This document shows positions 4,800-34,985 of a DNA stretch of 41,653 nucleotides, one piece after another. Position 1 is the first letter of the stretch; each line of letters starts with the position of its first letter. The notes under the pieces were generated by a model, which did no database searches, had not been told where the DNA came from, and was given only the letters and a program-made list of their open reading frames with translations. The DNA is taken from assembly GCA_014695345.1 (NCBI GenBank), contig JACJOC010000091.1, positions 1-41,653 on the forward strand. Reading direction: 5' to 3'. This DNA is from Cyanobacteria bacterium FACHB-471. Its GTDB lineage: Bacteria > Cyanobacteriota > Cyanobacteriia > Elainellales > Elainellaceae. The position numbers were made by a program, and so were the translations under genes.

Positions 4800-5858
4800 T
4801 CAAAGCAGCTCTATTGAGCCCATTTGAGGTTGTAAGGCAGCAGGGCTGATGCCAGCTCGATGGGACACCAGCACACCTAATGCTTCCAGATAAGAATTGA
4901 CCTGAAGGGCTGAAATTCCTAAAGCGTCTGGATAAGACTGCATCCGAGTTTTGTTATCGTGAACTGCAATGATCTGGGCAGTGTGACTCAGACTGAGAAC
5001 AGCGCTGCCACCACAGGCACTCGACGGAACAATCAGCGCATCCACCTGAGCTGCCCATAGGTGATCGGGTTGAGCTAACAATTGGGCTGAAGATTTCACA
5101 AACTGTGGGGCACGGCTCAGACCCACTAAAACGCAAGGTAGGAAGGTGTAACCCACCTCCTCGGCAGCTGAGCGCGGAGATAGCTTTGGGTCAAGCGGCA
5201 GGGGAGAAAGGGCCGGAGCATGGGCACAAGGGATTTGGAAGGTTCGTACTACCAGATGGCTAATCACTGCCTCTGCACCTGCCAGGGGATCAACGCCCTG
5301 ACCGTGACGATAGGCTTGCAGGGCTTCACTTCCTGTGTCATCGGGAAACCGAGCAACGACGGCGATCGCCTCTGCACCTGCCTGTTTGATCAACTTCTCC
5401 GTTGCTCGCAGCAAGCTATCTGGATGCTGAATCGTTCCCCAAGTTGCACCAGAGGCAGCCTGACGTAGCTCTACCCCCAATGGCATATCAGTCACAACAT
5501 AATCAGTCAGAGATAAACCTAGTGTGGCTCTAGTGGCATCTGCAACTTGGAGGTGCCTTAGCCGCAATTCTGGTTCAATGCCCTGATCCAAAACCAACCC
5601 TACTCGGTTTTGATGGACGGGTCGCAATCCCCAGTTGCCTGCTGCAAACTGATCTAGCCCATACCCCTCTACATAGAAAGCGTTGGGTAAGGGCCAGTAA
5701 AGCTGTGCGCCATTGAGGACATTAGGATGAGTAATCAGGCGATCGCTGACCTGGGCGATCGCTCGAGCCACGGGCAGTGCATCCCCTGCGTATCCCCCAA
5801 CAGATGCCCCGATCCCTGTCGGAACAATTAAAACAGTCGTATACAAACGCTGGCTCAA
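4800..5858 (-). CDS. DUF3326 domain-containing protein
   Basis: A 352-residue soluble protein beginning MSQRLYTTVLIVPTGIGASVGGYAGDA, the signature start of DUF3326 proteins in cyanobacteria and plants. It is rich in Gly, Ala and Pro and contains a DMPLGVELR segment and a central GAEAIAVVARFPDD segment. No catalytic function is established for the family. It is immediately downstream (4 nt) of a 65-residue ORF on the same strand and is almost certainly translated from the same mRNA. Confidence 0.9.
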   Translation of the reverse strand: MSQRLYTTVLIVPTGIGASVGGYAGDALPVARAIAQVSDRLITHPNVLNGAQLYWPLPNAFYVEGYGLDQFAAGNWGLRPVHQNRVGLVLDQGIEPELRLRHLQVADATRATLGLSLTDYVVTDMPLGVELRQAASGATWGTIQHPDSLLRATEKLIKQAGAEAIAVVARFPDDTGSEALQAYRHGQGVDPLAGAEAVISHLVVRTFQIPCAHAPALSPLPLDPKLSPRSAAEEVGYTFLPCVLVGLSRAPQFVKSSAQLLAQPDHLWAAQVDALIVPSSACGGSAVLSLSHTAQIIAVHDNKTRMQSYPDALGISALQVNSYLEALGVLVSHRAGISPAALQPQMGSIELL

Positions 5859-31626: not shown

Positions 31627-32082
31627 CTAAACCTGTTCTTTTTGAGCTTGGGCATTTAGCGCATATTCCTTAAAACGCTCTAAATCTGCCTGAATGGTGG
31701 ACTCGACAACGCGTCCCAAAAAGAGGTTGTCCATCAGTCGCCCTAGCCAACCCGGAATTGCGTAGGCGACAGTTAGCTTCACGATGCTGCTGTCGCCCCG
31801 GTCATAAAAGCGGATTGCGCCTCGGTTGGGCAAGCCATCAACTGATTCCCACTCGATGATCTGGTGGGGTATGACTTTGAGAATTCGCGAAAGCCAGCTG
31901 AATTCCAAACCACCTGTGGCGAGTTTCCAGCGTGACAATTCGGGATTATCATCCAGTACTTTGACGGAATCGATCCATTTCATCCAGCGGGGCATTTGCT
32001 CCAGGTCAGACCAGAGACTCCACACCAATTCCATCGGTGTTTCTACTTCAACCTGGACGCTGTGTTCTAACCATTCAGGCAT
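31627..32082 (-). CDS. SRPBCC family protein (polyketide cyclase/dehydrase-like)
   Basis: A 151-residue START/Bet v1-fold protein. VEVETPMELVWSLWSDLEQMPRWMKWIDSVKVLDD is the typical first strand and helix of the family, followed by WKLATGGLEFSWLSRI and HQIIEWESVDGLPNRGAIRFYD. Such proteins bind hydrophobic ligands. A SRPBCC gene next to crtQ is a recurrent arrangement in cyanobacteria, so a role in carotenoid binding or desaturation is plausible but unproven. It lies 106 bp after crtQ on the same strand. Confidence 0.9.
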   Translation of the reverse strand: MPEWLEHSVQVEVETPMELVWSLWSDLEQMPRWMKWIDSVKVLDDNPELSRWKLATGGLEFSWLSRILKVIPHQIIEWESVDGLPNRGAIRFYDRGDSSIVKLTVAYAIPGWLGRLMDNLFLGRVVESTIQADLERFKEYALNAQAQKEQV

Positions 32083-32188: not shown

Positions 32189-33628
32189 TTATGGTTCCAG
32201 AATTGCTTTTGCGGCTTGCCGACCTGAAATCGTTGCCCCTTCCATGCTATCGATGTAGTCTTGCTGGGTGTAACTGCCCGCAAGGAAGAAGTTGGAGATG
32301 GGAGTTTTTTGGGCTGGGCGATAGGGGTCCATACCGGGTGCTTCGCGGTAGAGCGATTGGGCTAGCTTGACGACACTATACCAGGTCATGTTTAGCTCGT
32401 GGGAGGAGGGGAAGAGGTCATGCACCTGTTTGAGGACGTGTTGGGCGATCGCTTCATTATTCTGCTTGATGAAGGGGTCACCCGGAGTTAATACCACCTG
32501 CAACAAGGAACCCTGACCTTCGCGGTAGTAATCTCCGGGGCTGGTCAGTGCCATATCTGCAAAGCAAGAAAAGTCTGCATCCGGCGTGTACAGCAAGTTG
32601 TCCATCCCAGCGGCATGATCAAGCTGCTTGCGTTCAGCGTCGTTGTGCAGTTCTGTCACCCAGCCGTCAAAGCGAAGCTGCACTGTCGCGACTGGCACAG
32701 CATCTAATTTATAAATGTTGTCAAACTCAGACCACTGTCGCCACTCAGAAGGCAAAAGCCGTTGAATTCCAGGTACATCACAGGCGCAGACGTATTTGTC
32801 GGCCGTGATTGTTTCCTGTTCTTCTCCTTTGGCAATAACCAAACCAGTCACTCGCGTCTGTGCGCCTTCTCCTTCAAATAAAATCTGTCGTACACTTCGA
32901 CGGGTATGGATTTTGGTGCCTCGTGCTTCCAAGTAGTCAATGATGGGTTTGTGCAAATATTCGTAGGGTGACCCTTCCAGCATTCGCAAGATTGAGGCTT
33001 CCGTCTTGGCAGCAAAGAACTGGAAGATGGTCAGCATACAGCGAGCAGAAATGTTTTCCGTGTCGATGAAGCCCAACGCATAGGCGATTGGATTCCACAT
33101 GCGCTTGAGGCTGCCGTTAGAGCCACCGTGACTGCGAAACCAGTCGGCAAAACTGATTCTGTCGAGGTCACGAATGGTTTTCATTGCGCCATCAAAGTCA
33201 ATCAAACCTCGCACGAGGGGACTGGTACCGAGAGCGATCGCATTCTGAGCCTTGTCTTGAAGCGAAAGCTGGGAGGTCGTGAAAAATGCCTTTAACCCGT
33301 TGAACGGTGCCCCGGTGATGAAGCGAAAGTCTAACGCTCCGGTTTGCCCGCCCCGGTTTACAAAGGTGTGGGTGTGTTCTTTGAGGCGTAGGTTGGCGAT
33401 CGCCCCTACCTTTTCCATCAGCGCAAACAGGTTGTAATAGCAGCCAAAGAAGACATGCAGCCCCATTTCAATATGGTTGCCGTCTGGGTCCACCCAGCTT
33501 CCGACTTTGCCGCCAACAAAGGGGCGCGATTCAAAAATTTCTACCTCATGCCCGGCATCTACTAAATCAACGGCAGTCGCCATGCCTGCCAGACCTGCTC
33601 CAACGATCGCAACTCGCATTCTGTTCAT
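32189..33628 (-). CDS. crtQ: 9,9'-di-cis-zeta-carotene desaturase
   Basis: Plant-type zeta-carotene desaturase converting zeta-carotene through neurosporene to prolycopene, at the membrane. The 479-residue flavoprotein starts with the dinucleotide-binding motif [21 protein letters not shown] and FESR, then [28 protein letters not shown], which distinguishes ZDS/PDS enzymes. The C-terminus has [27 protein letters not shown], the carotenoid-oxidoreductase signature. AAAGGA lies 9 nt before the ATG. Upstream, 45 bp away on the same strand, is a TetR gene; downstream is the SRPBCC gene. Confidence 0.95.
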
Positions 33629-33673
33629 CTTTAAGATTCCTTTGCATAGTGTAGTGGAAATGGGGATTAGGGA

Positions 33674-34324
33674 TTAGGGCTTGGGAGGCGGGTCAGGAAA
33701 GAGGGGGTGCAGGTAGCGGGTTAGTAGGGTTTTGGTTTCGGACATGACTTGTTGGCGAAAGGCTTCGGTTTGGGTGAGGGAGAGAATTTGAAGTGACCCA
33801 GCAGTTTCGACGCTAATCAAGGCTACTAGTCTGATTTGTTCGGGGGAAAGGGTGGATTGCCTTGCAGCCAGAAACTTCTCCAGGTGTAGGGCAATTTCGG
33901 AGTCGAGCCGTTTGTCTAACTTCTGCAAGTCTGGTGATAGGCGCGTTTGAGCGAATACGACCTGATACCCTGGCTGAGTAATGTAAAACTGCTCGAAATC
34001 GTCAACTGCCTCATTAATTACTTGAGTTAAGGGCAAATGCGACAGAGCGGGATCAAACGCTTCTGCCAAAACTTTTCGTAGCTGCTCAGCGTAGGATTCG
34101 GCTAGGGCGTAGAGAATGGCGGACTTGTCTGGGAAGAAGCGGTAAAGGGAGCCGATTGAGGTGCTAGCTCGGGTGGCGATCGCCTCCGTAGAGGCTTTCT
34201 CATAGCCCACTTCGGCAAAGACCTGCGCCGCTGCTTCTAAAATACGGTTAAACCGTTCCTGACTGCGAGTTTGCCGAGGTAAATGGCGCAAGGATTCGGA
34301 GCCAGGTGACGGCGGAGTGGTCAT
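33674..34324 (-). CDS. TetR/AcrR family transcriptional regulator
   Basis: A 216-residue repressor-type protein. The N-terminal DNA-binding domain is at about residues 18-65 (RFNRILEAAAQVFAEVGYEKASTEAIATRASTS, then IGSLYRFFPDKSAILYALAE), typical TetR. The C-terminal ligand-binding domain is helical, with VINEAVDDFEQFY and PEQIRLVALISVETAG. The ligand is unknown. Two inverted copies of an operator-like 19-mer lie just upstream, suggesting autoregulation; because crtQ follows at 45 bp, the same promoter may influence crtQ. Confidence 0.92.
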   Translation of the reverse strand: MTTPPSPGSESLRHLPRQTRSQERFNRILEAAAQVFAEVGYEKASTEAIATRASTSIGSLYRFFPDKSAILYALAESYAEQLRKVLAEAFDPALSHLPLTQVINEAVDDFEQFYITQPGYQVVFAQTRLSPDLQKLDKRLDSEIALHLEKFLAARQSTLSPEQIRLVALISVETAGSLQILSLTQTEAFRQQVMSETKTLLTRYLHPLFPDPPPKP

Positions 34325-34347
34325 GCCAAAATTTTGTGCTCATAAAA

Positions 34348-34403
34348 ATCGTGAGGATTTTTCACGTTCTCAGCATATCACAAACATGAGAAATCCTCAC
34401 GAT
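34348..34403. promoter_or_regulatory. Two inverted operator-like 19-mers upstream of the TetR gene
   Basis: CATGAGAAATCCTCACGAT at 34385-34403 and, on the other strand, CGTGAAAAATCCTCACGAT at 34366-34348 match at 17 of 19 positions. Each has the TGA-n-TCA dyad expected for a TetR dimer. The proximal copy is 24 nt before the TetR ATG. Confidence 0.7.
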
Positions 34404-34571
34404 CTAATTCTCGCTCCTCTAGTTCTCAGTCCATCCCTTTACGGGTAAGCCTAAGAACTAGGGGAACGGTATTTCTACACGAAAAATTTATTCTGAAAGC
34501 TACCCAGGTTCAATTTTAATAAGCCAAACTAGTGGCGATCTATACCTATATTTTGGTGCTCACTTGTCACT

Positions 34572-34985
34572 ATGAAGAAAAGCCAACCTGCACGTTACAG
34601 CACACCCGATCGCCAAGCTGCAACTCGCTCTCGGCAAAATATTACTGCGTTTGCTTATCTTGCCGGTGTATTTGTAGTGGGCGTAGTTGTGATTTTATTT
34701 GTTCAAGGGCGATTGGTAATTGGGGGCGTGCCCTCGGGCATCATTATGGAATTTTTACAGGATGACCTTGCTCGTTCGGCTTACTTCAGCGGCAACAGCA
34801 CAGCACTCCACGATCGCCTGGATGAGATAGGCATCGAGGAAGCAATGAAAGATTATTACCGTCCCCAAATTTCCGATGAGGTGGTACTAGATCAACATAT
34901 CCACCAAATTTTGTATGACCGCACGGGCTATGTCGGTGAAGACTATCAGGTCAATGGCGGAGTTTTGGTGTTAAAGGACGATTAG
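34572..34985 (+). CDS. Small single-pass membrane protein, hypothetical
   Basis: A 137-residue protein with a basic N-terminus ([21 protein letters not shown]), one hydrophobic segment at about residues 25-46 ([20 protein letters not shown]) and a ~90-residue acidic, mostly helical region ([39 protein letters not shown]). By the positive-inside rule the short N-terminus is cytoplasmic and the C-terminal domain is in the periplasm or lumen. No family recognised. Its last 15 bp overlap the end of the convergent AtzH-like gene. Confidence 0.7.

Follow-up and report, generated by a model that had tools for sequence, protein, structure and literature searches.

A contig stretch of 41,653 nucleotides from Cyanobacteria bacterium FACHB-471 (the window) carries a TetR-family gene directly in front of crtQ and, in front of tetR, a pair of inverted repeats. 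The locus raises the question of whether a ligand-responsive repressor ties ζ-carotene desaturation to a signal in this organism. With a probability of about 0.58 we read it as an autoregulated repressor of carotenoid desaturation that would reach crtQ by read-through, on top of expression from crtQ's own promoter.

On the minus strand the order is operators, tetR, crtQ and an SRPBCC gene (Table 1). The assignment of crtQ is given by a profile search (TIGR02732 equivalog, 923.6 bits against a cut-off of 622.15). The statement of the initial annotation that crtQ follows tetR after 45 bp with no visible terminator holds when the first ATG at 33628 is counted, and the terminator scan lists no terminator-like site between the two genes. 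The gap measures 54 bp if crtQ starts at the ATG at 33619, which is favoured because the corresponding frames in both same-genus genomes, G001 and G002, begin with MRVAIVGAG.

Table 1. Features of the tetR–crtQ locus; positions are those of the window.
Feature	Position	Strand	Remarks
SRPBCC/polyketide-cyclase-like gene	31627–32082	−	3′ of crtQ here and in G001 and G002
crtQ, 9,9′-di-cis-ζ-carotene desaturase	32189–33628	−	start probably 33619
crtQ-proximal conserved element CTACACTATGCAAAG	33640–33654	−	−10-like TACACT at 33648–33653
Lineage-specific block	33670–34482	.	tetR, operators and second hairpin
TetR-family regulator, 216 aa	33674–34324	−	TetR_N and TetR_C_15
Paired-operator region	34348–34403	.	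inverted repeat flagged in the initial annotation
Proximal putative TetR operator GTGAAAAATCCTCAC	34351–34365	−	one departure from the dyad
Candidate −10 of tetR, TATGCT	34372–34377	−	by eye; between the operators, 6 nt before the proximal one
Distal putative TetR operator GTGAGGATTTCTCAT	34386–34400	−	perfect RYGAGN5CTCRY dyad
Divergent 137-aa gene	34572–34985	+	without Pfam or NCBIfam match

The regulator matches the TetR_N helix-turn-helix domain (PF00440, 53.4 bits, cut-off 24) and a TetR ligand domain (PF17918, 80.4 bits), and at the sequence level a palindromic putative operator lies beside its own gene, as in the TetR family. Its predicted model (pLDDT 88) shows an all-helical TetR fold whose nearest neighbours among the chains compared are EthR (Z 19.4, rmsd 3.1 over 193 residues), FasR (Z 18.6) and DesT (Z 17.2), whereas identity to these proteins is 13–20 %, and a common fold shows no function. 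DesT controls a fatty-acid desaturase operon. According to their titles, the structure entries of DesT and FasR contain long-chain acyl-CoA ligands; judging from the model, a long hydrophobic ligand is conceivable for the window TetR as well. In a tree that used ORF translations for L039, L167 and L043, the regulators of the window, G190, G147, G388 and G057 group together in a single clade (support 95/90). A scan of the named genomes with P0001 returned six remote actinobacterial TetRs and nothing else.

Two 19-mers in opposite orientation, each containing a dyad, had been described just before the TetR start, and all three details could be confirmed. The 19-mers agree at 17 of 19 positions (34348–34366 against the reverse complement of 34385–34403), both arms are dyads of the form CGTGAGGATTTYTCAYG, and they lie 24–79 nt upstream of the ATG at 34324. 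Taken as 34348–34368 and 34383–34403, the arms can pair at 19 of their 21 positions and are separated by 14 nt; the two 15-bp dyads occupy 27–76 nt upstream of the start, with their centres 35 bp apart. A comparable inverted repeat was found in none of 60 resampled intergenic sequences and nowhere in 20 resampled windows. The real window has equally good ones at three other places, so that an inverted repeat by itself is not unusual here. The 7.15-Mb genome contains the 17-mer CRTGAGGATTTYTCAYG with zero mismatches at just these two places. When up to two mismatches are allowed, four genome sites stand against six for the reversed control, and hence the exact matches alone stand out. A second pair with the central sequence of these sites was found nowhere else in the genome.

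The half-site code RTGAGN5CTCAY was discarded as a regulon finder, since it returned 15 sites in the own genome against 10 for the reversed control. Three of the 15 form an array at 5704–5776 before a TetR paralogue (L138, G000:C11, 39 % identical), in the interval that separates it from a divergent 468-aa gene, possibly for a cytochrome P450. A lone operator-like site at C28:113800, approximately 143 bp upstream of a reading frame that presumably is msrB, was set aside as background: the counts equal the control and G001 lacks the site at that position. For the tetR promoter, the consensus scan gave no site at tetR or crtQ and did not list the candidate TATGCT; a TATAGT in the promoter of the crtI gene of G190 is, by eye, placed in the same way. 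A second hairpin at 34412–34468 with 18-nt arms (83 % complementary) lies within the lineage-specific block and is not listed as a terminator.

To what extent such dyads accompany related regulators was evaluated in the 150 bp upstream of 35 homologous tetR genes, comprising the window's own and two paralogues (36–100 % identity, tblastn; starts extrapolated from the alignment). At least one perfect RYGAGN5CTCRY dyad precedes 15 of the 35 homologues, compared with 1 of 175 control stretches; these homologues are kin and the 15 are not independent events, nine belonging to one other subclade and five to the clade of the window. At least two dyads with one departure or none occur before 13 of the 35 (0/175 in the controls). 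In the window's clade, none of the five members lacks a perfect dyad. The distal operator 15-mer (ATGAGAAATCCTCAC on the other strand) is identical before tetR of G190, whose regulator shares 62–65 % of its residues with that of the window, and similar dyads precede tetR in G147, G388 and G057, the last with GTGAGGATTTCTCAC (TetR identity 49–51 %). The 20 homologues without a perfect dyad all lie outside the clade, including the homologues from G268 and G152 (50–53 % identical); several of the 20 show, by eye and uncounted, GAG–CTC dyads with a different spacer. Site totals over seven searched genomes (16 against 15 in controls) do not exceed the background, so that the case for the link to carotenoid desaturases described below is one of pairing and position. 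With the same or similar dyads in front of the tetR genes of the clade, the proposal that the 19-mers are TetR operators has gained in weight, and the sequence comparison suggests that the dyads are very probably the operators of the window TetR.

The linkage of tetR to crtQ was looked for at 98 crtQ loci, 98 of 117 genomes being positive at E 1e-150 or better; all 98 upstream regions were compared, 93 with at least 1 kb and five shorter, the shortest of 126 bp. The comparison with relatives that the initial annotation had proposed shows the gene order at one of the 98 loci, the window's own, and it is absent from both same-genus genomes, G001 and G002. One further row of the tblastn search of the 98 upstream regions with TetR (L016, 39 aa, 28 %, E 0.007) was taken as chance. 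Homology to G001 and G002 ends at 33669 and restarts at 34471 and 34483, respectively, so that the 0.8-kb block of Table 1 replaces approximately 3.8 kb of these genomes. In G002 this stretch holds TPR, PhoD-type phosphatase and Uma2 genes, and in G001 frames that share their beginnings with the TPR and PhoD-type genes of G002. Judged from these alignments, the crtQ neighbourhood of tetR is recent and not conserved. A GGGATTAGGGATTAGGG-type repeat at 33661–33680 covers the 33670 junction, a possible recombination point.

A separate strong promoter within the gap, together with crtQ mRNA unchanged by loss of TetR, had been named as a finding that would speak against control of crtQ by TetR. The first half of this was found in part, namely the conserved −10-like element of Table 1, which is identical in G002 and differs by one base in G001. 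Its consensus TTAAAATATGTAAAG was present with up to three substitutions within 150 bp upstream of 60 of the 98 crtQ genes, in 47 of the 60 at 10–25 nt before the extrapolated start, compared with none in 192 control stretches and none in 490 shuffles; the copies of the window and G002 carry four substitutions and are therefore outside the 60. The element resembles a −10 region, a conserved −35 is absent, and it may be similar to the HLR1 motif; no paper joining RpaB, HLR1 and crtQ was found in the open-licence literature. This conservation makes it probable that the gap holds a promoter belonging to crtQ itself, in which case the contribution of TetR to crtQ expression would be no more than an addition. 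No operator-like site with up to three mismatches was found within 33560–33760.

A different carotenoid gene appears beside the regulator in other members of the clade. In G147 and G388, two genomes of one genus from a different family than that of the window, a gene for a CrtI-type desaturase stands directly 3′ of tetR, and paired dyads 27 bp apart precede tetR. The G147 protein matches TIGR02734 with 412 bits (cut-off 238) and is 90 % identical to that of G388; the closest solved chain by sequence is 4dgk, a phytoene dehydrogenase. In G190, tetR is located on contig C26, where an RND efflux adaptor gene diverges from it. A second operator pair of G190 was found on contig C32, 27–78 nt before the orthologue of the G147 CrtI-type gene (415 bits, 77 % identity), with the two sites 37 bp apart at −78 and −41 from its start. 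The CrtI-type gene of G071 shares 82 % identity with the one in G190, but no operator at up to one mismatch precedes it and G071 gave no TetR match at 1e-52, so that this genome serves as a natural negative control. Among 191 genomes searched at 1e-120 seven contained a CrtI-type gene, G190 being found separately, and a TetR of the clade adjoins it in two of the seven.

The desaturase link is thus seen in G147, G388 and G190, in the window by adjacency to crtQ only, and not in G057, where tetR adjoins hypD and no carotenoid gene. At that locus (L180:4831–6461) tetR overlaps the start of the hypD frame and the hypD model is matched only from position 44, as if tetR had landed in hypD, or the hypD start lies elsewhere. 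The proposed tie between TetR and carotenoid desaturation is supported for these members of the clade, through adjacency in G147 and G388 and an operator pair in trans in G190, and is not supported as a conserved linkage to crtQ. At the sequence level, gene order and operator position in other cyanobacteria speak well for a tie between regulators of the clade and a CrtI-type carotenoid desaturase.

Other local regulators were also seen beside CrtI-type genes. A divergent MarR gene adjoins the CrtI-type gene in G328 and G205, and an unrelated TetR gene stands beside one on a mobilizable 22-kb plasmid of Chondrocystis sp. NIES-4102 (together the set L186, L187 and L207). The plasmid TetR, with a BLASTP E value of 0.024 and TetR_N as its sole domain match, does not belong to the clade; its gene shows no dyad at up to one mismatch, and one match with two mismatches lies over the start codon. 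CrtI-type genes may simply attract local regulators.

The strongest competitor to our reading is an autoregulated TetR that came to lie beside crtQ by chance, with operators serving tetR only and crtQ using only its own promoter. The single occurrence among 98 crtQ loci, the recent 0.8-kb replacement, the conserved crtQ-proximal element without an operator nearby and the position of tetR beside hypD in G057 are all in accordance with it; the independent ties of clade members to another carotenoid desaturase in two lineages are not, and a rough estimate puts such a neighbour at approximately 0.2 % (about ten desaturase-type genes among some 6000). Because of the results for G190 and for G147 and G388 it is no longer preferred, and we regard it as unlikely, though still to be reckoned with. 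Considerably less probable is control mainly of the divergent 137-aa gene, in the usual layout of a TetR and its divergent target. The orientation of that gene and the divergent neighbours of several more distant TetR homologues would suit this assignment, but G001 and G002 retain the gene although they lack the block and this tetR beside it, its start is approximately 170 bp from the operators, and the candidate −10 between them faces, by eye, towards tetR. An RNA hairpin, terminator or mobile-element remnant in place of an operator pair is very improbable: the arms could pair over 21 bp around a 14-nt loop, the scan calls both dyads terminator-like on the minus strand and the window holds the three equal repeats mentioned above, but the clade conserves each 15-bp dyad before tetR or crtI at spacings of 27, 35 and 37 bp with no long stem, and the exact 17-mer is found nowhere else in the genome.

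For the preferred reading, an autoregulated repressor reaching crtQ by read-through, the following course is proposed. A TetR dimer would occupy each of the two dyads, flanking the −10 of its own promoter and causing autorepression, until a putative ligand frees TetR from the DNA. The tetR transcript would then read through the gap of 45–54 bp into crtQ and the SRPBCC gene, adding a ligand-dependent supply of ζ-carotene desaturase to the basal supply from crtQ's conserved promoter. A rise of the tetR–crtQ–SRPBCC transcript upon release of TetR would be expected, since the scan detected nothing terminator-like in the tetR–crtQ gap. In this genome, TetR presumably represses rather than activates and may control crtQ through such read-through, and we infer that the ligand would be carotenoid-related or otherwise hydrophobic.

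PrqR of Synechocystis PCC 6803 is, as we assume, a member of the TetR family. Its description reports a cis sequence for auto-repression, and binding of PrqR to the prqA promoter by ChIP-PCR with repression of prqA (PMC5007503). It shows the same arrangement of a cyanobacterial regulator gene directly 5′ of its target gene; in contrast to crtQ, the target prqA encodes a MATE-type efflux protein, and the predicted PrqR site given in a figure legend, ATTTGTTTTTTCATA, is not the dyad of the window (PMC5007503). Local repressors of carotenoid genes are described for Corynebacterium glutamicum with a MarR-type regulator (PMC6739363) and for Myxococcales with CarH/CarA (PMC9304148). Unlike the regulator of the window these belong to the MarR and MerR families, act in light-responsive systems, and are neither TetR nor cyanobacterial. 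In the open-licence literature, as covered by titles, beginnings of abstracts and passages, no account of a TetR protein controlling a carotenoid desaturase in cyanobacteria was found.

A wider reading, which we put forward tentatively, is that carotenoid desaturation in scattered cyanobacteria is under the control of a TetR lineage dedicated to it, which travels as a small cassette of tetR plus operators. This lineage would normally command an accessory CrtI-type desaturase, adjacent or in trans, and would here have been recruited to the plant-type crtQ, making the core pathway ligand-responsive; the ligand would then perhaps be a carotene intermediate, an apocarotenoid or a bleaching compound. 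The question can be put to the test, since the 15-bp operator is readable, four genomes (window, G147, G388 and G190) offer candidate desaturase targets and G071 provides a negative control. If true, a core step of photosynthetic pigment synthesis would have come under a ligand-gated switch through acquisition of a 0.8-kb cassette, and the repressor might find use as a sensor of the carotenoid pathway.
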